Source: Sulfuritalea sp. (GTDB lineage: Bacteria > Pseudomonadota > Gammaproteobacteria > Burkholderiales > Rhodocyclaceae). From it: a DNA stretch of 38,550 bases. This document shows, piece after piece, positions 1,940 to 34,860 of the stretch (its first letter is position 1; the number at the start of each line of letters is the position of its first letter). The position numbers and the translations under genes were made by a program. The notes beneath the pieces were generated by a model that saw only the letters and a program-made list of their open reading frames with translations, did not search any database and had not been told where the DNA came from. The stretch spans positions 1 through 38,550 of the forward strand of contig JAUXUK010000012.1 in the NCBI GenBank assembly GCA_030680805.1, in the 5' to 3' direction.

Positions 1940-2395
1940 TTAACCCGGCGCGTCACCCTGCTCCCTGGCCGTATCGTGATCGCGCGAGGGAATGCGCCAT
2001 AGCCAGACAGAGGTAGACAAACCGATCACCGCGAGCAGGAATTGCAGCCATGGCATGGCCGACAGTGTCCAGATCGACGCGCAGATGGTCAGGCTCATCA
2101 GCGTGATGGCGATCACCTTGATGCGATACGGAATGCTGTGGTGCCGCCGCCATTCGATGATCAGCGGGCCGAAGGTCGGGTTGGCGATCAGCCAGCGATA
2201 GAAGGGCTCGGAAGCGCGGGCATAGCACGCCGCAGCGACCAGGACGAAGGGTGTGGTGGGCAGGCCGGGCAGGAACACGCCGATTATGCCGAGCACCAAG
2301 GCAAGGCTGCCGAGGGTCCACAACACCATGCGCACCACCAGCGAGGGGTGCAATTCCGACTCCGGGATTTCATAGGGGGCCTCGTCCTCGTTCAT
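1940..2395 (-). CDS. DUF454 (YbaN-type) small inner-membrane protein
   Basis: A 151-residue protein of the DUF454/YbaN family, function unknown. After an acidic N-terminus (NEDEAPYE) come a hydrophobic hairpin with the family signature GVFLPGLPTTPF, a short amphipathic stretch (EPFYRWLIANPTFGP) and two further hydrophobic segments, giving about three to four membrane spans. The start is the ATG at 2395, which overlaps the TGA of the radical SAM gene as ATGA, so the two are probably translationally coupled. It is the last gene of the gltB-gltD-glmU-glmS-radical SAM run. The coupling suggests, but does not prove, a shared role with the radical SAM protein. Confidence 0.85.
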   Translation of the reverse strand: MNEDEAPYEIPESELHPSLVVRMVLWTLGSLALVLGIIGVFLPGLPTTPFVLVAAACYARASEPFYRWLIANPTFGPLIIEWRRHHSIPYRIKVIAITLMSLTICASIWTLSAMPWLQFLLAVIGLSTSVWLWRIPSRDHDTAREQGDAPG

Positions 2396-4275
2396 CCCAG
2401 CGCTCGCTCGATGAAATGGCGCGGCACCTTGGTACGAGGCACGCGACCGGCAAACCACCCGCGCACGTCCTGATCGAGGCCGAGCCCGTGCATGTAGTTG
2501 TAGAGCGCCTTGTTCAGCGCGATGCCCAGCACGTCGTGATCGACGCCCACGGGATCGATGAAGCCGACGTCGTTCTTCGCAAACGCGCCCGCCGGCAGCG
2601 GCTTGAGCCTGACGCCGTAGTGCCCGGGGTTCAGGCCAACCGGCGAATGCACGGTGCAGGCGAAGCGGTGGAAAAATCCGGACTGGATGCAGCCCGCCGC
2701 GAACAGCTGCCGCACGTATTCGAGCGCATCCACGGTGTCCTGCACGGTTTGCGTCGGGAAGCCGTACATCAGGTAGGCGTGCACCAGGATGCCGGCATCG
2801 GTGAAGGCATGCGTCACCTGTGCCACCTGCTCGACCGAAACGCCTTTCTGCATGAGCTTGAGCAGGCGGTCGGAGGCGACCTCGAGGCCGCCGGAAACTG
2901 CGATGCAGCCGCTCTCGGCAAGCTCCGCGCACAGATCCGGTGTGAAGGACTTCTCGAAACGGATATTGCCCCACCATGAAATCGCCCGCTGGCGCTTTTG
3001 CAGCTCCGCGGCCAGTGCCTTCAGGGCCTTGGGCGGGGCGGCCTCATCAACGAAATGGAATCCCGTCTGCCCGGTCTCGGCGATGACGGTCTCGATGCGG
3101 TCGACCAGCGTCGTCGCGGCAAGCGCCTCGTAGCGCGAGATGTAGTCCAGCGACACATCGCAGAAGCTGCACTTCTTCCAGTAGCAGCCGTGGGCGACGG
3201 TCAGCTTGTTCCAGCGCGCGTCGGACCAGAGCCGATGCATGGGATTGAGCATGTCCAGCAAGGAGAGGTAGCGGTCGAGCGGCAGGCCGTCCCAGGTCGG
3301 CGTTCCTGCATCGGCGAAGGCTATGTCCGGTTCGCCGGCGTCGATGCAGCGCACGCCTTCCGTGCTGCGGACGAAAGTTCGCACCAACCTGCCCTGCGGC
3401 CGCTTGCCTTGCAGATGTTCGAGCAGGGCCAGCAGCGGGCGCTCGCCGTCGTCCAGCGTCACGTAGTCGAAATAGTCGAACACCCGCGGCTCGCCGAGTT
3501 CGCGCAATTCGGTATTGACGAAACCGCCGCCGAGCACGGTAACGATCGAGGGATCCTGCGCCTTGATCGCCTGAGCGATGCGAAACGCGCCATACACGTT
3601 GCCGGGAAAGGGCGCCGACACCAGCACAAGCTTGGGCGCATGCCGCGCGATGGCCTCCAGCGCCAGTTCGCGCAGGCTTGCGTCAATCAGATTGGGAGGC
3701 GCCGCCAGCGCCCTGGCCAGCGGATCGAACGACGCCTGGCTCTGCGCCAGCGATTCCGCGTAGCGCACGAACTCGAAGCGCGAATCGACCGCTTCGCGCA
3801 GCACATCGGCGACATCATCGAGATAGAGGGTGGCGAAATGCCGGGCGCGGTCCTGCACGCCGAGGGCACCGAAGGCCCAGGCCAGCGGGTCGCCGCCTTC
3901 GTCGTCGATGTAAGCGTCGAGCGATTCGAAACGCGGCCCCTCGGGCAGGAAGTGGCGCCCGCTTATGCGATGCCCGATCGACGGGTCACGCCCCTGCAGG
4001 AAGGCCACCGCACAGTCGATCGTGGATAGATAGCGGTCGAATGCCCGGTCGAAGGCCTGAACACGCGGCGTTCGCTGCGCCAAGGGCAAAGCGGAAAGGC
4101 ACTCACGGATGGCCAGCAGCCCATCGCGCGAAAACAGGCGCAGGACCAGCGCCAGCGCCAGGTCCTCCTGCACCGCATCGATGCCGCGCGAACGCAGAAA
4201 GCCGGTCAGATAGGCCGTCGACGGATAGGGCGTGTTGAGTTGCGTCATCGGCGGGATGACGGAGAGGACACGCAT
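2392..4275 (-). CDS. B12-binding-type radical SAM protein with CX4CX2C motif
   Basis: A 627-residue radical SAM protein of the COG1032 type; substrate unknown. The N-terminus (VLSVIPPMTQLNTPYPSTAY) and residues about 214-262 (KLVLVSAPFPGN ... VLGGGFVN) resemble the two ends of the Rossmann-like cobalamin-binding domain of this class. They are separated by about 150 residues of unrelated sequence. The cluster motif is HGCYWKKCSFCD, with cysteines at 364, 369 and 372. That is CX4CX2C rather than the usual CX3CX2C. The TIM-barrel part continues with a GG.E-like element (SGGLEVASDRLL) and ends near residue 627. I see no extra cysteine-rich SPASM region. It lies 30 bases after glmS and overlaps the DUF454 gene by ATGA. 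Possible roles include methylation or peptide/lipid modification; none can be chosen from sequence alone. Confidence 0.85.
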   Translation of the reverse strand: MRVLSVIPPMTQLNTPYPSTAYLTGFLRSRGIDAVQEDLALALVLRLFSRDGLLAIRECLSALPLAQRTPRVQAFDRAFDRYLSTIDCAVAFLQGRDPSIGHRISGRHFLPEGPRFESLDAYIDDEGGDPLAWAFGALGVQDRARHFATLYLDDVADVLREAVDSRFEFVRYAESLAQSQASFDPLARALAAPPNLIDASLRELALEAIARHAPKLVLVSAPFPGNVYGAFRIAQAIKAQDPSIVTVLGGGFVNTELRELGEPRVFDYFDYVTLDDGERPLLALLEHLQGKRPQGRLVRTFVRSTEGVRCIDAGEPDIAFADAGTPTWDGLPLDRYLSLLDMLNPMHRLWSDARWNKLTVAHGCYWKKCSFCDVSLDYISRYEALAATTLVDRIETVIAETGQTGFHFVDEAAPPKALKALAAELQKRQRAISWWGNIRFEKSFTPDLCAELAESGCIAVSGGLEVASDRLLKLMQKGVSVEQVAQVTHAFTDAGILVHAYLMYGFPTQTVQDTVDALEYVRQLFAAGCIQSGFFHRFACTVHSPVGLNPGHYGVRLKPLPAGAFAKNDVGFIDPVGVDHDVLGIALNKALYNYMHGLGLDQDVRGWFAGRVPRTKVPRHFIERALG

Positions 4276-7501: not shown

Positions 7502-13593
<6,092 letters not shown>

Positions 13594-13621
13594 CTTGTCT
13601 TTCCTCGGAAATGCAGCCGGC

Positions 13622-13651
13622 AAAAAAGCCGGGGTGATGCCTCTCCCCGGC
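13622..13651 (-). terminator. Intrinsic-terminator hairpin in the gltB leader (possible attenuator)
   Basis: On the minus strand GCCGGGG (13651-13645) and CCCCGGC (13634-13628) form a 7-bp GC stem with a 10-base loop. It is followed immediately by six T residues (13627-13622). It ends only 28 bases before the gltB ATG and lies downstream of the best promoter. It may attenuate gltB, or may simply end transcripts from the gene upstream (stop at 13756). Confidence 0.65.
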
Positions 13652-13659
13652 CTTGAATG

Positions 13660-13679
13660 GTCCGCCGGTCAAGGCGGAC
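13660..13679 (-). other. Second hairpin at the 5' end of the predicted gltB leader
   Basis: GTCCGCC and GGCGGAC (13660-13666 with 13673-13679) form a perfect 7-bp stem with a 6-base loop, very close to the predicted transcription start. Its CCGGC could instead pair with GCCGG in the 5' arm of the terminator hairpin, so mutually exclusive folds are possible. Confidence 0.45.
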
Positions 13680-13687
13680 GATGTGCA

Positions 13688-13716
13688 AATATACCGCCAA
13701 AAGCCGGCAAATTCAA
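13688..13716 (-). promoter_or_regulatory. Sigma-70-type promoter for gltB
   Basis: On the minus strand TTGAAT (13716-13711) is followed after exactly 17 bases by TATATT (13693-13688). This matches 4/6 and 5/6 of the -35 and -10 consensus. Transcription would start near 13681, giving a leader of about 85-90 bases that contains both hairpins. Confidence 0.55.
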
Positions 13717-13755
13717 TACGCTGCAACGCAACAACCCAAGTCCCGCTGGCTGAAT

Positions 13756-16353
13756 CTATCCGCTGCGGGAAGTCGCGGCCGGGGCTGTCGGGTGACAGCA
13801 AACGACCCGCTGGCTGACGATGTCCGCCAGCAACTGGTAGCCATCGGCCATGTCCAGCACCCGCAGGGCGGGAGCAAAGCGTGCGTCATCGGGCAACAAC
13901 TCCGCCAGACGATTGGGCTGTACCCGCAATAACTCGGCGTTGAGGAAGCATCCTGGCCGCTCGGGATGCAGCGCCACGTAGAAAATCCCGGTTTCAACCA
14001 GATCCTGGAAAAAGTGCGAACCGAAGGACAACTCCGGCTGCAATCCTCCCGCGGAAAAGGCTACCTCCCCGATTGCCGTCATGGCATTGATCTCGGCAAA
14101 CCGCACCGGAACGCCAAGGCGCAGGGTGGAGGTGCCCCAGCGTCCTGGCCCCAACAACAGGGTCGGCACGGCATCGCGCGCCACGACCTCGCGGTTGAGG
14201 CGGCCGATGATGCGCGCCAGTTCATACTTGTCGGACTGGCTCATGCCCATGAAGGCCTCGGGATCGACGGCGATCACCCGCCCGATCGGCTGCACGATGC
14301 TGCCGCCCATGAAGTTGCCGCTACTGCTGAACAGCGTGTCGACCGGACTCGGCACCTCGATCTCGACCCGCTTGGCCTGGATGCCGCGCGTCTGCAGTGG
14401 GCGGCACTGGATCAGGTTGACATGGAGCCGGCCGTCGCCGGTGTAGGTGCCGGTAAACTCCACGTCGATCGGGTACTCGTACGCCTGCTCGAGCGCCTGC
14501 AGCAAGCGGCGCATGGTGGCGGCAAATCCGGTCTCGGTCAGGAGGCGGTCAAAAGTGACCAGCCAGCCGGCCGGATCCCGCTCGGCGAAAAGCTCCAGCG
14601 GCAGGGTCGCGGCCTCCGCCTGCAAGGCAGGCAGCGGCACGGTGCGCCAGGAGTTCTGCGCCAGATCGAGCACATCGACATCGTGCTGGGTGAAGCGGCG
14701 CCGATTCTCCGGATCGTTGAGGGGAACCACCAGCGGCTGGTCGAGGGAGACGATGCGCGGATAGTCGCCCTCGACCCGGTCTACGGCGCGGGTGCCGAGG
14801 CCGACCACCAGGCGCAGCATTCCGGCCTCCGGGTCGATGTCGTGTCGCCAGACGAAGGTGTTGTAGGAGATGCCGACGCCGGCGAAGGCCGGGAAAAAAT
14901 GATCGCCATGGTAGGCGCCCGATACGCGCTGCACCAGCAAGGCCATCTGCTCTTCCTGGCGCGCCAGGCCGCGCTGCAGGCGGTAGGCCAGCGCCTCCTC
15001 GCTGAGGGTGCTGGCATACACCATCCGCACCGCTTCGAGGAACTGCTCCAGGCGGTCTTCGGGCGAGCCTTGATTGACGCAGAAGAAGCTGTCGTACTTG
15101 CCGGCGAAGGCATTGCCGAATCCGTCCTCCAGCAGGCTGGACGAGCGCACGATGATCGGGTACTGGCCGAAATGCTCGAGCATTTTCTGGAACTCGCGGA
15201 GGATTTCAACGGGGAAGCTGCCCTGCCGCAGCGCCTCCCGCAAGGGCGCCGCCCCGCTCGAATAGCCGGCTTCGCTACGCTGCCACATGAAAGCCTGCCA
15301 CCAGCCGTTGCTGACAATGTAGGAGTGAAACAGATCGGAGCCGATGAAGAAGGAGTCATGGGGTTCGAGGACATCGCCCCAGCCCGATTCCGCATCCGCC
15401 TCGAGGATCGCCCGCGCCAGCAACATGCCCACCGACTTGCCGCCGATGAAACCGGTGCCGATCAGCCGCCCCTTGATGGCAAGGAGATCGCCCAGCGTGA
15501 AATGCCGGCGCGCCAGCGCCAGCATCCGCTCGTCGCGCCCGATCAGCAGGCGGCACAGCTGCTCCACCATCGCCTGCCGCCGCGGCGCATTCGCCGCGGA
15601 AGCTTCCAGCTCCGCGGCGCGGATGAACAGGCGCTCCCATGAATCGAGATGGCGTCCGGCGTCGTCAGGAGTCCGGCTGGCGAGCCGGTCGAACAGGCTG
15701 GTCGCCTCGCAACTGGTCGTGATCGGAATGAACTGCCCGCGCTCGTGTCGGTGCGGAAGGAACATGGTCGGCGAGTAGCGCTGCCATACCTTGAGCGGAT
15801 GCAGATAGAGCGCGCCGCCCTCGTTGTAGAGGTCGATCAGCAGCTGGGTGGTGGTGCGGATCGCGTCGACGGTGGCCGTCGAATGGGCTCCGCGACGCAA
15901 GGCGAAATGCGCCACCGTATCGAGTTCGAACAGGTAGGGGCAGGTGACACGGAAGAAATTGCCGATCATGCCGTCGGTCGCCCAGGCATCGAGCAGGTCG
16001 GACAGGCAGTCGAAGACATAAAAGACGTCGCGCCCTTCGGCGGCGAGGATGGTATGCAGGCGGACAGTGAAGGACTCGAAACCGCGCAGCGCGTCAAGGT
16101 CGTAGACCGCGCCGACCTCGCTCGCTTCCAGCACCGGCGCATGGGAGCCAAAGCGGACATAGACCACACGCCGCCCGGCGGCTGTCGCCGCCGCGACGAA
16201 GGTCGCGACGAATGCCCGGTAGTCATCGACGCTATCCACCCGCCAGACCACGTTGTCGCCTAGGCGCAGTCCGCCGAGAATGGCGTCCAGGCCCGGCAGG
16301 CCGCTGCTGACGAAGCGGCGCGGATCAGGCTCGGGAGGCATTGCGCGCGTCAT
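13756..16353 (-). CDS. Degenerate KaiC-like domain fused to PEP-synthase-type ATP-grasp (PPDK N-terminal) domain
   Basis: An 865-residue protein of unknown function. Residues about 14-200 read like a KaiC/RadA RecA-fold domain: the opening SSGLPGLDAILGGLRLGDNV is the KaiC signature and VFYVFDCLSDL looks like a Walker B strand. Where the P-loop (GxxGxGKT) should stand there is WRVDSVDDYRAF, with no lysine or glycine pattern. Residues about 295-650 match the ATP-binding domain of PEP synthase/pyruvate phosphate dikinase: GFIGGKSVGM, VRSSSLLEDGFGNAFAGKYDSFF (402-424) and the domain-closing LIQCRPLQ. The swivelling phosphohistidine domain and the PEP/pyruvate-binding barrel of those enzymes are missing. 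A C-terminal part of about 200 residues (with GPGRWGTS) is unassigned. The ATG at 16353 lacks a clear Shine-Dalgarno; an ATG at 16341 is an alternative. The gene lies between gdhA and gltB, on the same strand as both. Confidence 0.8.
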   Translation of the reverse strand: MTRAMPPEPDPRRFVSSGLPGLDAILGGLRLGDNVVWRVDSVDDYRAFVATFVAAATAAGRRVVYVRFGSHAPVLEASEVGAVYDLDALRGFESFTVRLHTILAAEGRDVFYVFDCLSDLLDAWATDGMIGNFFRVTCPYLFELDTVAHFALRRGAHSTATVDAIRTTTQLLIDLYNEGGALYLHPLKVWQRYSPTMFLPHRHERGQFIPITTSCEATSLFDRLASRTPDDAGRHLDSWERLFIRAAELEASAANAPRRQAMVEQLCRLLIGRDERMLALARRHFTLGDLLAIKGRLIGTGFIGGKSVGMLLARAILEADAESGWGDVLEPHDSFFIGSDLFHSYIVSNGWWQAFMWQRSEAGYSSGAAPLREALRQGSFPVEILREFQKMLEHFGQYPIIVRSSSLLEDGFGNAFAGKYDSFFCVNQGSPEDRLEQFLEAVRMVYASTLSEEALAYRLQRGLARQEEQMALLVQRVSGAYHGDHFFPAFAGVGISYNTFVWRHDIDPEAGMLRLVVGLGTRAVDRVEGDYPRIVSLDQPLVVPLNDPENRRRFTQHDVDVLDLAQNSWRTVPLPALQAEAATLPLELFAERDPAGWLVTFDRLLTETGFAATMRRLLQALEQAYEYPIDVEFTGTYTGDGRLHVNLIQCRPLQTRGIQAKRVEIEVPSPVDTLFSSSGNFMGGSIVQPIGRVIAVDPEAFMGMSQSDKYELARIIGRLNREVVARDAVPTLLLGPGRWGTSTLRLGVPVRFAEINAMTAIGEVAFSAGGLQPELSFGSHFFQDLVETGIFYVALHPERPGCFLNAELLRVQPNRLAELLPDDARFAPALRVLDMADGYQLLADIVSQRVVCCHPTAPAATSRSG

Positions 16354-16416
16354 GCCGGATCAGGTACCGGACAAACCGGAGTGGCACGGTTGCGGGGATT
16401 CGGACAACGGAAACGC

Positions 16417-16450
16417 ACACGGCGGAGCCCCTTGCGGGGTTCCGCCGTGT
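16417..16450 (-). terminator. Terminator-like hairpin after gdhA
   Basis: A 10-bp arm (16417-16426 with 16441-16450), one mismatch on the minus strand, then 4 more base pairs around a 4-base loop. On the minus strand it is followed by GCGTTTCCGTT, a broken T-run. It lies about 50 bases after the gdhA stop and about 65 bases before the next start, so it probably ends or reduces gdhA transcripts. Confidence 0.55.
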
Positions 16451-16499
16451 CCTTGATCCGTCACGGGGTTCATCCGGAAAGTCCGGCGCTGAACACCGA

Positions 16500-17867
<1,368 letters not shown>

Positions 17868-17913
17868 TTAAGAATTCCTCACCGCGCGAACAACCGAGCA
17901 TGTCGCCCTCGTC

Positions 17914-17930
17914 CGCCCCAATTTGGTGCA
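17914..17930 (-). promoter_or_regulatory. NtrC-like dyad upstream of gdhA
   Basis: On the minus strand TGCACC, 5 bases (AAATT), then GGGGCG. This matches 10 of 12 positions of the NtrC-type dyad TGCACC-N5-GGTGCA. It would fall just downstream of the predicted start of transcription, a position that suits repression. Short motif; chance occurrence is possible. Confidence 0.3.
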
Positions 17931-17944
17931 ATCCTACTATCAAC

Positions 17945-17972
17945 AGGATAGAAATCGCTTGTCGAGCGTCAA
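17945..17972 (-). promoter_or_regulatory. Candidate sigma-70 promoter for gdhA
   Basis: On the minus strand TTGACG (17972-17967), 16 bases, then TATCCT (17950-17945): 5/6 and 4/6 consensus matches. It predicts a leader of about 90 bases. The rest of the 283-base gap between dgt and gdhA (17847-18129) shows no convincing gene or stable hairpin. Confidence 0.4.
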
Positions 17973-18129
17973 GTTTCTGCAATCGAAGACAGGCTTCGCC
18001 GGTCAGATGCCGATAGTCCATGAGGACGGCGAGAGAGCGCATCTGCGGAAGATGCCAGCGATTACGAGGCCGCGCCCGTCGTCAAACTCGCAGGGGCAGC
18101 GTCCGAAGGATGCCGGTCTTCCAGCCGGA

Positions 18130-19254
18130 CTATAGTTCCCCCACCGAGAACAGGCGGCGATGCTCCTTCATCGAGTAGCGGTCGGTCATGCCGGCAATGT
18201 AGTCCGCCGTTGCGCGCTCGACGCTTCCGGTCGCCGCCATTGCCTGATACTGGGGCGGCAGCAGGCGCGGATCGGCGACGAATGCATCGAACAAATCGTG
18301 GATGATCCGGCGCGCCTTGGTGGTCATGCGCAGCACTTGAAAGTGCTGGTACAGGTGTTGGCGCAGAAAAGCCTTGAGCGCCCGATTCTCGGCCTGCATG
18401 GCTTCGGTGAACGCTATCAGCGCGGGCGCCGCGCGCACATCTTCAAGCGTTTGCGGGGCCGCTGCGGCGATGCGCCGCGCCGACTCGGCGAGCAGGTCCG
18501 TCACCAGCGCGCCGATCATGCGCCGTATGGTTTCGTGTACGCGCCGGCGCCCCGAGAGGCCGGGGAATTCAGCGTCCGCTTCGGCGGCGTGGCGGGCAAA
18601 GAGGCTCACCCCCTCAAGTTGCTCCAGCGTGAGCAACCCGGAACGCAAGCCGTCATCGATGTCGTGATTGTTGTAGGCAATCTCGTCGGCCAGGTTGCAG
18701 ATCTGTGCTTCGAGCGACGGCCGGCGGCCCTCGAGGAAGCGCTGGCCCAGCTCGCCCAGTTCGCGGGCCTTGGCAGGCGAGCAATGCTTGAGGATGCCCT
18801 CGCGTGTCTCGAACATCAGGTTGAGCCCGTCGAAGGCGCCATAGCGTTCTTCAAGGCGATCGACGATGCTCAGGCTCTGCAGATTGTGTTCGAAGCCGCC
18901 ATGCGTCAGCATGCACTCGTTGAGGGCATCCTGACCGGCGTGGCCGAAGGGCGTATGCCCGAGGTCATGCGCCAGCGCAATGGCCTCGACCAGGTCGTCA
19001 TTGAGATTCATGGCACGCGCGATTGAACGCGCGATCTGGGCCACTTCGATGCTGTGCGTGAGGCGGGTGCGGAACAGATCGCCTTCGTGATTGACGAAAA
19101 CCTGCGTCTTGTATTCGAGGCGGCGAAAAGCGGTGGAATGCACGATCCGGTCACGGTCGCGCTGAAACTCGCTGCGGGCTACCGGCCGCGGCTCGGGGAT
19201 GGTGCGACCGCGACTGGCGCCGTCGCTGACTGCGTAGGGCGCCAGATCACCCAC
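18130..19254 (-). CDS. dgt: Deoxyguanosinetriphosphate triphosphohydrolase-like HD protein
   Basis: Predicted to hydrolyse dNTPs (classically dGTP) to the deoxynucleoside and triphosphate. HD-domain metal ligands are visible in order: His in [10 protein letters not shown], His-Asp in [13 protein letters not shown], and the later Asp in [13 protein letters not shown]. The region before them ([24 protein letters not shown]) is the family's conserved N-terminal motif. The frame is open to an ATG at 19305. I prefer the GTG at 19254, where the family-like N-terminus [16 protein letters not shown] begins and the start overlaps the aroB stop by 8 bases; this gives 374 residues. It is the last gene of the pil-aro run, after which a 283-base gap precedes gdhA. 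Confidence 0.93.
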
Positions 19255-26254: not shown

Positions 26255-28669
26255 GTGCCCATTCCAGCCCTACCCGCCCCCGCCCGCTGGGCGCTGTATT
26301 TCCTGCTCCTCATCTGCGGCGCCGTACTCAGTATCGCCGCACTGGCCGGCATTGTGCTCATCCTGGCCTATCCGCAGCTGCCGTCGATCGAAGTGCTGAC
26401 CGACTATCAGCCCAAAATTCCTCTACGCATCTACTCCAGCGACGGCCACCTGATCGGCGAGTTTGGCGAGGAACGGCGCAACTTTGCACAGATCAAGGAT
26501 GTTCCCCCCGTCATGAAGCAGGCCATTCTTGCGGCCGAAGACGAGCGTTTCTACCAGCATCCGGGTATCGACACCCTCGGGGTACTGCGCGCAGCGTATT
26601 CCAATTTCGTCGGCGGTGGCAAGCGTCAGGGTGCATCGACCATCACCATGCAGGTAGCGCGCAATTTCTTCCTTTCCAGCGAAAAGACCCTGACTCGAAA
26701 ACTCTACGAGATGTTACTGGCTTTCAAAATAGAGAACAATCTGGGAAAAGACCAGATTCTCGAGATCTACATCAACCAGATTTATCTCGGACAACGCGCC
26801 TACGGCTTCTCGGCAGCGGCACAGATCTATTATGGCAAAGCGTTGAAGGATGTCAGCATTGCAGAAGCCGCCATGCTGGCCGGCCTGCCGAAGGCGCCCT
26901 CGGCCTACAACCCGGTGGTCAATCCAAAACGCGCGCAGTTGCGCCAGCGCTATGTGCTGCGCCGGATGCACGAGCTCAGCTTCATCGATGACGCGCAATG
27001 GAAAGCCGCCCAGATGGAGCCCCTGCACGTCAAGCGTGATGTCAATGACTTCGGTGTCCGCGCCGAGCATGTCGCCGAAATGGCCCGTCAGATTACCGCC
27101 GAGCGATTTCCGGATGATATCTACAGCCGAGGCCTGCGCGTCATCACCACCATCAATCTGGGCGAACAACGAGCCGCCTATCTTGCCGTTCGCCGCGGCG
27201 TCATCGATTACGATCGTCGCCACGGCTATCGCGGCGCCGAAGCCTACGTCGACGTGAAAGGCATCACTTCGGACCAGGACGAGGAACTGGAGGAACTGCT
27301 GGCGGAGTACGACGACAGCGACGATCTGCTGCCGGCCATCGTTCTGGAGGCGACGCCCAAGCTGGTGCGGGCTTACCTGCGCGGCGGCGAAATACTCAAG
27401 ATCAGCGACGAGGGACTCAAGTTTGCCGCACGCCTGCTCGACGACAAGTCGCCACCCAACAAACGGGTGCGACGCGGTGCCGTGATTCGGGTACAAAAGG
27501 CCGACAAAGGATGGCAGATAGTCCAGTTGCCCGAAGTCGAAGCAGCCTTCGTCGCCGCCAGCCCCGTTGACGGAGCGATTCGGGCATTGGTCGGCGGTTT
27601 CGATTTCAATCGCAGCAAGTTCAACCATGTGACCCAGGCGTGGCGTCAACCCGGCTCCAGTTTCAAACCCTTCATCTACTCCGCCGGCCTGGAAAAGGGC
27701 TACACCCCGGCCTCCGTGATCCCGGACGAACCGGTTTCGATTTCTGCAGAAGAAACCGGCTCCCAGGCCTGGGAGCCGAAGAACTACGACGGAAAATACG
27801 AAGGCCCGATGAGCCTGCGTACCGCGCTGGCGAAATCGAAGAACATGGTGTCGATCCGCCTGCTGCGCTCCATCGGCACCCAGTATGCGCAGGACTATGT
27901 AACGCGCTTCGGCTTTGACGCCGACAAGAACCCGCCGTACCTGACCCTGGCGCTCGGTGCCGGCGCCGTAACGCCGTGGCAACAACTCGCGGCCTACTCC
28001 ATATTCGCCAATGGTGGCTATCGCATCACTCCCTACATCGTGCGCCGGATCCTCGACGACAAGGGGGCGGTGCTGGCGGAGATACAGCCCTCGCTGGCTG
28101 GAGACGAATCGCTGCGCGCCATCGACGCGCGCAACGCCTGGCTGATGGACAGCATGATGCACGACGTGGTGCGACGCGGCACCGCGACGCGCGCTGCCGC
28201 AGTGCTCAAGCGCAGCGACCTGGCGGGCAAAACCGGCACCACCAACGACTACATCGACGCCTGGTTCTGCGGTTACCAGCCAACTGTGGTCGGCGTCGCG
28301 TGGATCGGCTTCGATCAGCCCAAGCGCATGGGCAACGGCGAGACCGGCGGCGCGGCGGCGCTGCCGATCTGGATCGGCTTCATGGAACACGCGTTGAAGA
28401 ACGTACCCGAGAGCTGGCAGGAAACCCCCGAAGGCATGGTGTCCATTATCGCCAATGATCCCTCGGGCAAGACCAGCAAGGAACTCGTGTACAAGGAGCA
28501 TCTGCCTCCCATCCCGGCAGACGAGGAAAAGGAAGAAGCTGTGCAGGAGAAGGCCCCGGTGCAGGATGCAAAGCCGAAGATGGTTGAGAAGCCGGCTGCG
28601 CCCAAACCTGCTGAAAAGCCGGCCGCGGAAAAGCCTGTCCCGCCCAAGCCCGCCGAAAAGAAGCCCTAA
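26255..28669 (+). CDS. mrcA: Penicillin-binding protein 1A (class A, bifunctional)
   Basis: Polymerises glycan strands and cross-links peptides in peptidoglycan, at the inner membrane. It has 804 residues from a GTG at 26255. One N-terminal anchor lies at about 13-39. The glycosyltransferase domain has the catalytic glutamate in AAEDERFYQHPGID (E95), GASTITMQVARNFF and the YLGQRAYG motif. The transpeptidase domain has SxxK (S468-SF-K471), SxN (S528-N530) and KTGT (659-662). An OB-like insertion precedes the transpeptidase, as is usual for PBP1A. The last 60 residues are a low-complexity Lys/Pro/Ala/Glu tail (PKPAEKPAAEKP). Its divergence from pilMNOPQ is common in betaproteobacteria. The stop overlaps that of convergent cyaY. 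Confidence 0.97.
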   Translation: MPIPALPAPARWALYFLLLICGAVLSIAALAGIVLILAYPQLPSIEVLTDYQPKIPLRIYSSDGHLIGEFGEERRNFAQIKDVPPVMKQAILAAEDERFYQHPGIDTLGVLRAAYSNFVGGGKRQGASTITMQVARNFFLSSEKTLTRKLYEMLLAFKIENNLGKDQILEIYINQIYLGQRAYGFSAAAQIYYGKALKDVSIAEAAMLAGLPKAPSAYNPVVNPKRAQLRQRYVLRRMHELSFIDDAQWKAAQMEPLHVKRDVNDFGVRAEHVAEMARQITAERFPDDIYSRGLRVITTINLGEQRAAYLAVRRGVIDYDRRHGYRGAEAYVDVKGITSDQDEELEELLAEYDDSDDLLPAIVLEATPKLVRAYLRGGEILKISDEGLKFAARLLDDKSPPNKRVRRGAVIRVQKADKGWQIVQLPEVEAAFVAASPVDGAIRALVGGFDFNRSKFNHVTQAWRQPGSSFKPFIYSAGLEKGYTPASVIPDEPVSISAEETGSQAWEPKNYDGKYEGPMSLRTALAKSKNMVSIRLLRSIGTQYAQDYVTRFGFDADKNPPYLTLALGAGAVTPWQQLAAYSIFANGGYRITPYIVRRILDDKGAVLAEIQPSLAGDESLRAIDARNAWLMDSMMHDVVRRGTATRAAAVLKRSDLAGKTGTTNDYIDAWFCGYQPTVVGVAWIGFDQPKRMGNGETGGAAALPIWIGFMEHALKNVPESWQETPEGMVSIIANDPSGKTSKELVYKEHLPPIPADEEKEEAVQEKAPVQDAKPKMVEKPAAPKPAEKPAAEKPVPPKPAEKKP

Positions 28670-28992
28670 AGTTCGACTTTGACGCCGGCCTGTTCCGACA
28701 AGGTGCGCGACAAGGCCGCCAGCAGTTCCTCGCCATCGCGCGTGCCCAGCCACTTTCCGCCTTGCGGACGGAAATGATACCCGCCTGATTTTGCCGCCAG
28801 CCATATCTCGCGTGCGGCGCCGTGGCGATTCAGAATGATTTTCGAGCCGTTCTCGAACTCGATCTCGATCACGCCACCAGGTTTGGTTTCAAAATCGAAA
28901 TCGGCAATGTCGCTTTCGCTTGCAGCCTCCAACGCCGTTTCGATGCGCGCCAGTTCGGCATCTGCCGCGGCCATGAATTCCCGTTCATCCAT
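28666..28992 (-). CDS. cyaY: Frataxin-like iron-binding protein
   Basis: Iron-binding regulator of iron-sulfur cluster assembly in the cytosol. It has 108 residues. The acidic first helix (DEREFMAAADAELARIETALE) and acidic ridge (SDIADFDFE) precede the beta-sheet signature GSKIILNRHGAAREIWLAAKSGGYHF, matching the conserved frataxin fold. The gene diverges from lptM across only 43 bases. It converges with ponA with a 4-base overlap of the stop codons, leaving no room for a dedicated terminator. Confidence 0.95.
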   Translation of the reverse strand: MDEREFMAAADAELARIETALEAASESDIADFDFETKPGGVIEIEFENGSKIILNRHGAAREIWLAAKSGGYHFRPQGGKWLGTRDGEELLAALSRTLSEQAGVKVEL

Positions 28993-31677: not shown

Positions 31678-34600
31678 ATGACCCTGCCCGAGCTTTCCGT
31701 CAAGCGCCATGTCCTCGCGTGGATGGCGAATGCCGTGCTGGTGCTGTTCGGGGTGATCGCCTTCAGCCGCATCGGCATGGACCGGCTGCCCTACATCGAG
31801 TTTCCGGTGGTCTCCATCACCACCACGCTGAAGGGCGCCAACCCCGACATCGTCGACGCCAGCGTCACCAACCTGATCGAGGGCGCGGTGAACAGCGTGC
31901 CCGGCATCGAGCACATTCAGTCCACGTCCTCGCCCGGCGTCTCGGTGGTGAACATCACCTTCGGACTGGAAAAGAATGTCGACGTCGCTTTCACCGAGGT
32001 GCAGTCCAAGGTCAACCAGGTGCTGCGCCGGCTGCCCAAGGATGTCGATCCGCCGATCGTGGCCAAGGTCGAGACCAATGCCTCGCCGATCTTCTGGATG
32101 GCGGTGCAGGGCGACCGCACCCAGCAACAGCTGAACCAGTACGCGCTCAACGTCATCAAGAAAAAACTGGAAACCATCAACGGCGTCGGCGAAGTGCGCC
32201 TCGGCGGCCGCCGCGACCGCACCATCCGCGTCAATCTGCTGCCCGACCGCATGGCCGCGCTGGGCGTCTCGGCGCAGGACATCAGCGATGCCTTTGCCCG
32301 CGAGCACGTGCAACTCGCCGGCGGCTTCGTCGTCGGCGAAACCACCGAACACCTGGTCAAGCTCGACCTCGAATTCCATACCCTCGATGCGCTGGGCGGG
32401 CTGGTGGTCGGCTACCGCGGATTATCGCCAAACGCGGCACCGACCGCCGCGCCGATCCGACTCATCGACATCGCCGAACTGGAAGACGGCCTGACCGACA
32501 ACCGTCAGTTGGCGCGCTTCAACGGCGAGATGACGATTGGCATGGGCGTGGTCAAGGTGACCAACGCCAACACCGTCGCCATCATCGAGCGCATCAAGGA
32601 AAAGCTCGCCAACGAAATCGAGCCACAGTTGCCGCCGGGCATGAAGATCAGCATCGTCTCCAACGATGCGGTGTTCATCCTTGAAATCGTCAACTCGCTG
32701 AAGCAGCACCTGATCGAAGGCACGCTGCTGGCGTCCTTGGTGGTCTGGTTTTTCCTGAGATCAATACGCTCGACGCTGATCGTCGCGCTGGCGATCCCGG
32801 TCTCGCTGATGGGCGCCATCGCCGTCATCTACTTCTTCGGCTACACGCTGAACTCGCTGACCATGCTGGCCCTGCTGCTCTTGATCGGCGTCGTCGTCGA
32901 CGATGCCATCGTGGTACTGGAGAACATCTTCCGCCATCGCGAGGAGATCGATCCCGAACCGGTGGCTGCCGCCGTCAACGGCAGCAAGGAAGTGGTGTTC
33001 GCCGTGATCGCGGCGACGCTGTCGCTGGTCTCGATCTTCGCCCCGGTGATCTTCCTGTCGGGCATCATCGGCCAGTTCTTCCGCTCGTTTGCCGTGGTCG
33101 TCACCTTCGGCGTGCTGGTCTCGCTGTTCGTCTCGCTGACCCTGACGCCGATGCTCTGCTCGCGCTACCTCAAGGTGGAAAAGCAGCACGGCCGCATCTA
33201 CCACCTGTTCGACAGGATTCTCGGCGGCCTCGACCGCATTTACATCACGCTCCTCGACCGCGCCCTTCGCCACCGCTGGCATGTCGTCGCCCTGACCGTC
33301 GCGGTGGTTGGTTCTTCGGCTTTCTTCTTCATGAACGTCGGCAAGACCTTCACCCCGGACGAGGACGAAGGCCGTTTCCGCATTTCGCTGCGCACGCCGC
33401 TGGGCTCCAGCATCGACTACACCGACAGCAAGTTGCGCGAAGTCGAAGAGGTGCTCGACCGCTATCCCGAGATCCGCACCGAGTTCGCCCTGATCGGGCT
33501 GGGCACCGCCGGGCAGGTTAACCAGGGTACGGTGGTGGTGCGCATGGCGCCGCGCGAGGAACGCACGCGCAGCCAGCACGAAGTGATCGGTGCGGTGCGC
33601 CGCGACCTCGCGGCGATTCCCGGCACGCGCGCCTTTGCCGCGCCCTTCGCCGTGGTCGGCGGCCAGCGCGGCGAGCCCCTGCAGTTCGTCCTCGCCGGCG
33701 ACAACATCAACGAGATCGGCCGCCTCTCGCGCGAACTGCAACAGAAGCTGGCCACCGTGCCCGGCATCGGCCGCATCGACAGCGACATCCAGCTCGACCT
33801 GCCGCAACTGGTCTTCATCCCCGACCGCCTGCGTATCGCCGCGGCCAACCTGTCTTCCAACGACGTCGCGCTGGCGGTCAACATGCTGACCGGCGGCGTC
33901 GATATCGCCAAGTTCAACGACGAGCCCGGCGACGGCCAGCGCTATGACATCCGCGTCAAGGCCAAGCCCGGCGAATTCACCCAGCCGGCCGACCTGTCGA
34001 AGATTTTCCTGCGCAGTCGCGACGGCAAGATGGTGCGCATGGATTCCGTGGCCCGCTTCGAGGAGCGCCTCGGTCCTGCCGTGATCGGCCGCTTTGACCT
34101 GCAGTACGCGGCCACCTTCTACGCCACGCCGGGCATCCCGCTCGGCGAAGCGGTCGAGGCGGTACGTCGCGCCGGACAGGAAATGCTGCCAGCCGGATAT
34201 CAGGTGCGTTTCATCGGCCAGGCCGAAGAATTCGGCAAGACCATGAAGTACATGGTGTTCACCTTCGCGCTGGCGCTGGTGCTGCTCTACATGGTGCTGG
34301 CCAGCCAGTTCAATTCCTTCATCCAGCCGGCCATCGTCATGCTGGCGCAGCCGCTGGCCGTGGTCGGCGGCGTCGCCGCGCTGTGGGCCACCGGGCAGAC
34401 GCTGAACATCTATTCCATGATCGGCCTGACGCTGCTGATCGGCCTGGTGGCGAAGAACTCGATCCTGCTGGTCGACCTCGCCAACCAGCGCCGCGAGGCC
34501 GGCATGGCAGTCGATGCCGCGCTGCGCAATGCCTGCCCGATCCGCATGCGCCCGGTGCTGATGACCTCCGCCACTGTGATCCTCGCCCTGGCCCCGGCCG

Positions 34601-34746
34601 CGCTGGGCCTCGGCGCCGGCGCCGAAACCCAGCAGCCGCTGGCCATCGCGGTCATCGGCGGCATGTTCTCGTCGACCTTGCTGACGCTGGTGGTGGTACC
34701 GGCGGTTTATTCGCTGATCGAGAGAAGGCTGGAAATCAAAACCTGA
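31678..34746 (+). CDS. RND-type efflux pump inner-membrane transporter
   Basis: Proton-driven exporter of the AcrB-like RND superfamily, most likely for hydrophobic or amphiphilic compounds rather than metals. The 1022-residue protein has the expected twelve-span, two-repeat layout. The first helix (VLAWMANAVLVLFGVIAF) is followed by a large periplasmic loop. TM4 has the proton-relay Asp pair in LIGVVVDDAIVVLENIFRH, and a second periplasmic loop follows. TM10 has the partner Lys in LIGLVAKNSILLVDLANQRR. The frame is open to 31480 inside the adaptor gene, but MTLPELSVKRHVLAW at 31678 is the family N-terminus. The Shine-Dalgarno is poor (GGA directly before ATG). The gene ends convergent to the enolase-like gene. 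Confidence 0.95.
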   Translation: MTLPELSVKRHVLAWMANAVLVLFGVIAFSRIGMDRLPYIEFPVVSITTTLKGANPDIVDASVTNLIEGAVNSVPGIEHIQSTSSPGVSVVNITFGLEKNVDVAFTEVQSKVNQVLRRLPKDVDPPIVAKVETNASPIFWMAVQGDRTQQQLNQYALNVIKKKLETINGVGEVRLGGRRDRTIRVNLLPDRMAALGVSAQDISDAFAREHVQLAGGFVVGETTEHLVKLDLEFHTLDALGGLVVGYRGLSPNAAPTAAPIRLIDIAELEDGLTDNRQLARFNGEMTIGMGVVKVTNANTVAIIERIKEKLANEIEPQLPPGMKISIVSNDAVFILEIVNSLKQHLIEGTLLASLVVWFFLRSIRSTLIVALAIPVSLMGAIAVIYFFGYTLNSLTMLALLLLIGVVVDDAIVVLENIFRHREEIDPEPVAAAVNGSKEVVFAVIAATLSLVSIFAPVIFLSGIIGQFFRSFAVVVTFGVLVSLFVSLTLTPMLCSRYLKVEKQHGRIYHLFDRILGGLDRIYITLLDRALRHRWHVVALTVAVVGSSAFFFMNVGKTFTPDEDEGRFRISLRTPLGSSIDYTDSKLREVEEVLDRYPEIRTEFALIGLGTAGQVNQGTVVVRMAPREERTRSQHEVIGAVRRDLAAIPGTRAFAAPFAVVGGQRGEPLQFVLAGDNINEIGRLSRELQQKLATVPGIGRIDSDIQLDLPQLVFIPDRLRIAAANLSSNDVALAVNMLTGGVDIAKFNDEPGDGQRYDIRVKAKPGEFTQPADLSKIFLRSRDGKMVRMDSVARFEERLGPAVIGRFDLQYAATFYATPGIPLGEAVEAVRRAGQEMLPAGYQVRFIGQAEEFGKTMKYMVFTFALALVLLYMVLASQFNSFIQPAIVMLAQPLAVVGGVAALWATGQTLNIYSMIGLTLLIGLVAKNSILLVDLANQRREAGMAVDAALRNACPIRMRPVLMTSATVILALAPAALGLGAGAETQQPLAIAVIGGMFSSTLLTLVVVPAVYSLIERRLEIKT

Positions 34747-34860
34747 AAGTTCCCGCAGGGGCGCAGCGCGCTGGCGACACGGCGACAGGATGGCTGGCGC
34801 GCCGTATTTCTGCATCGTTAACGTACACAGCCGATCTTGACGGTCGGCTTCCATGGCAGC
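34747..34860. other. Intergenic gap between convergent pump and enolase-like genes
   Basis: The 114 bases hold no gene I can support. The only structure is a short stem, GCCGATC (34830-34836) with GGTCGGC (34842-34848), including one G-T pair. It lacks a T-run and is a poor terminator candidate. Confidence 0.4.

Follow-up and report, generated by a model that had tools for sequence, protein, structure and literature searches.

A pseudo-KaiC/ATP-grasp protein encoded next to gdhA: a candidate ATP-dependent regulator of glutamate dehydrogenase

Introduction

What is the function of a protein in which a KaiC-like domain without a P-loop is joined to an isolated ATP-grasp domain of the phosphoenolpyruvate (PEP) synthase type? 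The question is raised by a gene for an 865-amino-acid (aa) protein on contig JAUXUK010000012.1 of Sulfuritalea sp., located on the minus strand at 13756..16353 (ATG start) of the 38,550-nucleotide stretch of DNA that was analysed, referred to below as the window. The next gene upstream, on the same strand and separated by a gap of 146 nt, is gdhA (16500..17846), which encodes an NADP-specific glutamate dehydrogenase (GDH; NF006929, E 2.4e-232, above cut-off). The evidence presented here gives about an even chance that the 865-aa protein is a dedicated, sensor-gated, ATP-dependent regulator of GDH, most likely one that would act by covalent phosphoryl transfer.

Ammonium enters biomass by two main routes, one of which is GDH. 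To our knowledge, there is no general dedicated regulator of bacterial NADP GDH; reversible inactivation of GDH in Bacteroides and phosphorylation of GDH in E. coli are said to have been seen in older reports, and we know of no enzyme behind either. A literature search, judged from titles and the beginnings of abstracts and with most subscription journals outside it, returned no paper linking the family to GDH. In the samples described below the family is nearly confined to places where GDH is present; its inputs are interchangeable and its ATP core is intact, which makes the question of GDH control directly testable. If the proposed function is true, the ATP-grasp enzymes would gain a member that modifies a protein, and the C-terminal domain may represent a new fold.

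Linkage of the gene to gdhA

The gene is sporadic, being present in 2 of 31 genomes of its own genus and 2 of 398 of its own phylum (E 1e-10), with the genome of the window counted in both. A scan of genome contigs gave at least 566 relatives, and the locus set used here (n = 82) was composed of the best 80 of these, the window, and a same-genus genome (G011), so that it leans to close relatives. The contigs of the best 80 were titled Proteobacteria (several kinds), Desulfuromonadales, Bacillota/Clostridia, Omnitrophota, Auribacterota, Spirochaetes, Deferribacteres, Phycisphaerae, Anaeromyxobacter, and, in one case, Euryarchaeota. The family spans many phyla and several architectures and is no single oddity.

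When the open reading frames (ORFs) of the 82 loci were clustered, gdhA was the commonest real neighbour. It was present in the examined flanks of 51 loci, with a gap of at most 310 bp in 40, and the linkage held when the 11 Marinobacter loci were removed (40/71) and when the count was restricted to loci flanked by 7 kb or more on each side (34/49). A gene of the set gdhA, gltB, gltD, glnA, or glnK-amt was nearby in 62 of the 82 loci (glnA and gltD outside the window were named by eye, glnK and amt of locus L044 by Pfam). The position of gdhA was upstream on the same strand in 21 loci, downstream convergent in 19, downstream on the same strand in 8, and upstream on the opposite strand in 1, and it was cut by contig ends in 2. 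Because the arrangement varies in this way, one inherited operon does not explain the linkage. The gene also adjoins gdhA in G011, whose copy is 42% identical to that of the window and whose gdhA is 54-56% identical; the corresponding Marinobacter values are 49-50% and 78%. On these identities it looks as if each of the two Sulfuritalea lineages acquired its own gene-gdhA pair.

At two loci (L047 and L057), glnA-like and response-regulator-like genes adjoin the gene and gdhA is not there; the regulator of L057 has an ANTAR domain. Tandem copies of the gene were noted in two genomes of the Desulfuromonadales class (L186, G645:C5; and G654:C1:692015-696322).

Domain organization and conserved residues

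The ORF at 13756..16353 is not a chance frame, because its product aligns with 69 relatives at 42-75% identity. The resulting 70-row alignment, which excludes six incomplete loci, five Marinobacter near-duplicates, and the G011 protein, was used for all counts of invariant residues and as input for an AlphaFold model of the whole protein (pLDDT 89.2, pTM 0.87). Foldseek searches of this model against the Protein Data Bank (PDB) matched the ATP-grasp domain of Rph (5hv3, E 2.4e-14), HpeI (9goj, E 2.6e-11), KaiC (7s65, E 3.4e-9), FlaH (4yds, E 5.2e-9), RecA (1xp8), and BcsE (9fo7). NCBIfam gave 15 matches, all partial, to PPDK_N-type enzymes and all far under cut-off.

The central domain (residues 296-655, 14389..15468, minus) is an ATP-grasp domain of the PPDK_N family (PF01326, residues 302-661, E 4.7e-44), with the motifs VRSSSLLED and FAGKYDSFF both present, as the original prediction had stated from the letters alone. 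Residues K306, R403, S422, E632, Q649, and R651 are invariant in 70/70 sequences, and K306, R403, E632, Q649, and R651 are kept also in a relative of 25% identity. K306 stands in a GGK motif, by which we equate it with Lys22 of Rph. When the protein is aligned with solved structures, Rph Arg117 and Thr136 correspond to R403 and S422 (Ser for Thr), and the Q-x-RP strand common to PEP synthase, pyruvate phosphate dikinase (PPDK), and Rph is kept; the loop after FAG reads K-Y, versus Q-Q or Q-H in the aligned dikinase structures. As reported for Rph (PMC4844700), loss of Lys22, Arg117, or Thr136 abolishes resistance, the Arg117 and Thr136 mutants keep a slowed ATP half-reaction, and Glu297 is dispensable. 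Judged by residue conservation, the ATP site of the PPDK_N domain appears intact.

The N-terminal domain (residues 12-213, 15715..16320, minus; boundaries set by hand on the model) begins with the KaiC opening SSGLPGLDAILGG and contains a Walker-B-like strand, VFYVFDCLSDL, that carries the invariant D115. Also invariant in 70/70 are D23, D33, Y45, Y65, W124, D127, K188, and H201. No P-loop pattern was present in any of the 70 aligned sequences, the window's included. A weak match to PAXNEB (PF05625; residues 10-68, E 0.0028) lies under the Pfam cut-off; we take this family to be Elp4, a RecA-like protein. The model and the KaiC and FlaH matches, which are placed in this domain by inference since their query ranges are not given, support a KaiC/FlaH-like RecA fold. 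The pseudo-KaiC assignment, the loss of the P-loop, and the unbroken ATP-grasp residues of the original prediction thus agree with what was found, and the outcome that it had named as fatal to itself, a model with no RecA-like fold or a non-functional ATP-grasp site, did not occur. A helical linker (residues 214-295, 15469..15714, minus; from the secondary structure of the model) joins the two domains.

Residues 668-858 (13780..14352, minus) were modelled alone with a pLDDT of 93.9. R738, E763, H780, and E787 are invariant in 70/70, and the invariant histidine sits in a G[ST]HF motif. No Pfam family was assigned to this region in any of the 70 members scanned (best E 0.027, one member), no PDB sequence relative was better than E 1.1, and no Foldseek match of the model fell under E 0.05. 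The region is a separate conserved domain, possibly with a new fold.

The original prediction had also held that the phosphohistidine and PEP domains of the normal dikinase reaction are missing, and Pfam, hhalign, and Foldseek indeed found neither these nor a pyruvate, drug, or other acceptor-binding domain in the window protein. A hidden swivel phosphohistidine domain at the C-terminus was considered and rejected: GSHFFQDLVE resembles the TCHAAIIARELG stretch, but the hhalign probability was 0.5%, in a comparison with a shallow profile of seven PEP-synthase swivel domains 76-83% identical to the first, and no Foldseek match was obtained. The C-terminal domain may nevertheless be a functional analogue of the swivel domain. 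No partner protein with a swivel histidine was present among the 20 window ORFs scanned, the other loci lying outside that scan.

Related architectures

The ATP-grasp and C-terminal core is common to forms with other N-termini. Form B, of about 1000 aa, has a receiver-like N-terminus (Response_reg above the Pfam cut-off in one of three proteins scanned and just under it in two), and gdhA is nearby in 15 of its 20 loci. At L100 (Parabacteroides), L159 (Phocaeicola), L196, L362, L363, L364, and L365, gdhA is the neighbour or lies within about 1 kb; at L367, whose core alone places it in form B, and L369 it is about 3 kb away; at L368 a contig edge leaves only 39 of its residues; and at L311, L316, L317, L318, and L321 it is seen as 46-54 residues at the edge of a 1.5-kb flank (E 7e-5 to 8e-8). 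It was not seen at L099, L366, L320, L322, and L323, the last three of which have short flanks. The Parabacteroides distasonis protein WP_041525632.1, annotated 'PEP/pyruvate-binding domain-containing protein', is the divergent neighbour of gdhA; it shares the core with the window protein at 25% identity and carries, in place of the pseudo-KaiC domain, a receiver-like N-terminus (Response_reg E 2.2e-6, just under the Pfam cut-off).

The third form, form C, of about 900-1070 aa and with an ELNCLY-like start, stands behind a GDH of a different class in 9/9 loci (L187, L195, L310 in the genome of L356, L354, L355, L357, L358, L359, and L360); the frame of the neighbouring GDH is interrupted in L359. 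Two of these GDHs, when scanned, matched Pfam ELFV_dehydrog (E 1.2e-69 and 2.5e-71), with GdhA_Arch as best NCBIfam match, under cut-off, and the remaining ones are 67-79% identical to the GDH of L187 over the aligned parts. A C-terminal nucleotidyltransferase domain (PF01909) was present in seven of the eight full-length form-C proteins scanned, L187 being without it. In two apparent operons the GDH gene is followed by a short PPDK_N form (581 and 578 aa) and then by form C (1072 and 1063 aa), at L355:4460-10719 and L354:3116-9995, respectively; L355 has a further copy of 775 aa on the other strand, without PF01909. By tblastn, GDH genes were present in L354, L356, L363, L364, L365, L367, and L368 and were not found in L366, L372, L361, L370, L371, and L186. 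Different inputs and two GDH classes therefore share one core, as expected of a GDH regulator family.

At L188-L194, in seven genomes of the Paenibacillus phylum, the relatives are short and carry none of the three N-termini. These short forms possibly have another function, although a short form also stands between GDH and form C in L354 and L355. What is presumably a DedA-like membrane protein, recognized by a motif, is encoded beside several of them. A stand-alone C-terminal domain beside gdhA (G685, G709) was rejected as a functional form, since the 136-aa ORFs, which come from two similar genomes, appear to be decayed remnants; otherwise invariant C-terminal residues are changed in that of G709.

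Co-occurrence with glutamate dehydrogenase

Among the 31 genomes without gdhA at the locus, 28 carry GdhA elsewhere at an identity of at least 57%, which brings the total to 79 of 82. In the sample of the window's phylum, a GdhA match (E 1e-60) was present in 85 of 396 genomes, at least two of which were only 33-37% identical. The class and phylum samples described next were drawn without regard to GDH.

In the class sample around a Desulfuromonadales genome, the gene was present in 44 and GdhA in 96 of 117 genomes; all 44 carriers, which include two remnants (G685, G709), one third-form gene (G635), and one copy with an internal stop (G669), have GdhA, and none of the 21 GdhA-less genomes has the gene (Fisher 1.4e-5, nominal). 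The distance between the gene and gdhA was within 8 kb in 34 of the 44 and within 20 kb in 36. In the phylum sample around a Paenibacillus genome, relatives were present in 14 of 149 genomes and had the KaiC-type N-terminus in five, all of which have GdhA, versus 38 of 149 genomes overall (E 1e-80; nominal Fisher 8.8e-4); three of these five genes adjoin gdhA, one is about 16 kb off, and one is on another contig. Relatives were also present in 36 of 193 genomes of the Anaeromyxobacter phylum and 40 of 198 of the phylum of a Spirochaetales genome. With flanks of only 1.5 kb, gdhA was found beside 21 of the 30 highest-scoring KaiC-type genes of the Spirochaetales phylum, 5 of 12 of the Anaeromyxobacter phylum, and, in addition, two partial KaiC-type genes (L306 and L309).

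Several observations weigh against a regulatory function tied to GDH. At 20 of the 82 loci, several of them at contig ends, no such nitrogen gene was present in the examined flanks, and no hexameric GdhA was seen in three gene-bearing, possibly incomplete genomes (G453, G459, and G478). In the Desulfuromonadales class, 52 of the 96 GdhA-bearing genomes are without the gene, and GDH therefore does not need it. When all 14 relatives of the Paenibacillus-phylum sample were counted, hexameric GdhA was present in 6, which is not significant (p 0.11); the other eight comprise one third form beside the other GDH class and the seven short forms, whose genomes lack hexameric GdhA and around which no GDH of either class was found in the examined DNA (contig ends truncate L190 and L193). 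The presence or absence of the gene changes 9 times on the GdhA tree, versus 31 times for shuffled labels, and the Fisher values given above are too small because the genomes are not independent. Finally, no GdhA position separated carriers from non-carriers within the class, the largest difference in frequency being 0.59 (40 versus 52 sequences; 95 of the 96 GdhA-bearing genomes were used, G744 being split over contigs and left out). No site of modification on GdhA is proposed.

GdhA residue E22 was tried as a mark of the partner and discarded. It was present in 50 of 52 linked and 4 of 31 unlinked GdhAs, the latter from best-scoring loci only (28 from the phylum search and 3 from the genus search), but this difference is confounded by phylogeny, and within the class no position separates carriers from the rest.

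Proposed function and alternative explanations

On the observed linkage and co-occurrence, a functional coupling of the family to GDH is highly probable. That the protein acts directly on the GDH protein is reasonably likely, and that it does so by covalent chemistry, whether phosphoryl or nucleotidyl transfer, is plausible at somewhat less than even chances. In the proposed mechanism, the pseudo-KaiC domain, having lost its ATP site, would serve as a ligand- or partner-sensing input that may respond to a nitrogen or energy signal, a role taken in the sister forms by the receiver-like or other input region. Like its counterparts in PEP synthase and rifampin phosphotransferase, the ATP-grasp domain would bind ATP and draw on the alpha-beta bond for phosphoryl transfer. 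The C-terminal domain, with its invariant histidine in G[ST]HF, would recognize GDH or else carry or position the acceptor. The net effect would be an ATP-dependent, probably reversible modification of GDH that tunes ammonium assimilation to the energy or nitrogen state. In its widest form, the proposal is of a protein-modification system in which swivel-less, sensor-gated ATP-grasp enzymes phosphorylate GDHs of two classes in many phyla, with a new C-terminal catalytic or target-recognition fold, as the GDH counterpart of GlnE/GlnD; this is advanced tentatively. The original prediction had the architecture right and named a regulatory kinase among its guesses; the linkage to GDH, the separate C-terminal domain, and the breadth of the family had escaped it.

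GarA acts on GDH by binding, and the protein might likewise be a non-covalent energy sensor, whose ATP-grasp domain only binds ATP, ADP, or AMP and which binds to GDH hexamers, inhibiting or activating them with no phosphate transfer. The linkage to and co-occurrence with GDH fit such a sensor equally well, as do the lost N-terminal ATP site and the lack of a detectable phosphohistidine carrier domain. The invariance of the ATP-site residues, five of which persist in the 25%-identical relative, is however stronger than expected for mere binding, and the four invariant residues of the C-terminal domain likewise speak for more than docking; this explanation is considered unlikely, if still the foremost of the alternatives. 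A little less probable is a metabolic enzyme, namely an ATP-dependent ligase or small-molecule phosphotransferase that uses a substrate or product of GDH. Some loci pair the gene with gltBD, glnA, or carA and not with gdhA (glnA and carA named by eye), and PPDK_N enzymes include the small-molecule kinases Rph and HpeHI (PMC4844700, PMC12167813). On the other hand, the exchange of input-like N-termini on one core is what regulators typically show, a nucleotidyltransferase is part of one form, and more than half of the GDH-bearing genomes of the Desulfuromonadales class dispense with the gene. It is very improbable that the protein is a diverged remnant of PEP synthase kept near gdhA by inherited synteny: the PPDK_N homology would suit a remnant, but the arrangements are varied and distributed over several phyla, a different class of GDH stands beside a sister form, and the ATP residues are fully conserved.

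Comparison with known systems

In the window protein, the swivel that defines dikinases and the P-loop that defines KaiC were not found, the features of the GDH and glutamine synthetase regulators considered are likewise missing, and one domain has no detectable fold relative. The protein shares the ATP-grasp domain with PEP synthase, PPDK, and Rph. With the RecA-fold ATPases KaiC and FlaH it shares the fold and opening motif and not the P-loop. Elp4 and BcsE are dead RecA-like proteins, and the N-terminus of the window protein is closer in kind to these.

The GlnE and GlnD nucleotidyltransferases control glutamine synthetase and PII. If the proposed regulation of GDH is true, the family would do physiologically for the other enzyme of ammonium assimilation what GlnE and GlnD do for glutamine synthetase, and its form C carries PF01909; the window protein, unlike GlnE and GlnD, has an ATP-grasp core and no nucleotidyltransferase domain detectable by Pfam. 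It also differs from GDH inhibitors of the GarA/OdhI type in that Pfam found no FHA domain in it. In the two-component dikinases of the HpeHI type, the ATP-grasp part is likewise apart from the acceptor part; there, ATP-grasp and acceptor histidine are on separate proteins and HpeH H581Q has no detectable activity (PMC12167813). An ATP-grasp domain that works with the histidine of another protein thus has a precedent in HpeI. Unlike HpeHI, the window protein fuses its ATP-grasp domain to a pseudo-KaiC domain and a new C-terminal domain, is linked to GDH, and has no swivel partner among the window ORFs scanned.

Other features of the window

Downstream of the 865-aa gene, after a gap of 132 nt, follows gltB, the large subunit of glutamate synthase (8965..13623, minus), and then a gltD-like gene for the small subunit (7502..8968, minus), which was named by eye from its Pfam domains and its clustering with other gltD-like ORFs; the order on the minus strand is thus gdhA, the 865-aa gene, gltB, and gltD. 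The gap between gdhA and the 865-aa gene contains a long hairpin (16418..16449, minus; ends read by hand), and the 146-nt gap folds with a z of -4.1. No T-tract terminator was listed in this gap and no Rfam match was found within window positions 13500-18300; the hairpin could be a terminator or an attenuator, or neither. Two long minus-strand ORFs (26714-28804 and 32761-34854; about 700 aa each) gave no Pfam match and are possibly spurious frames opposite real genes. A radical SAM protein with a B12-binding match just under cut-off is encoded at 2392-4275 on the minus strand.

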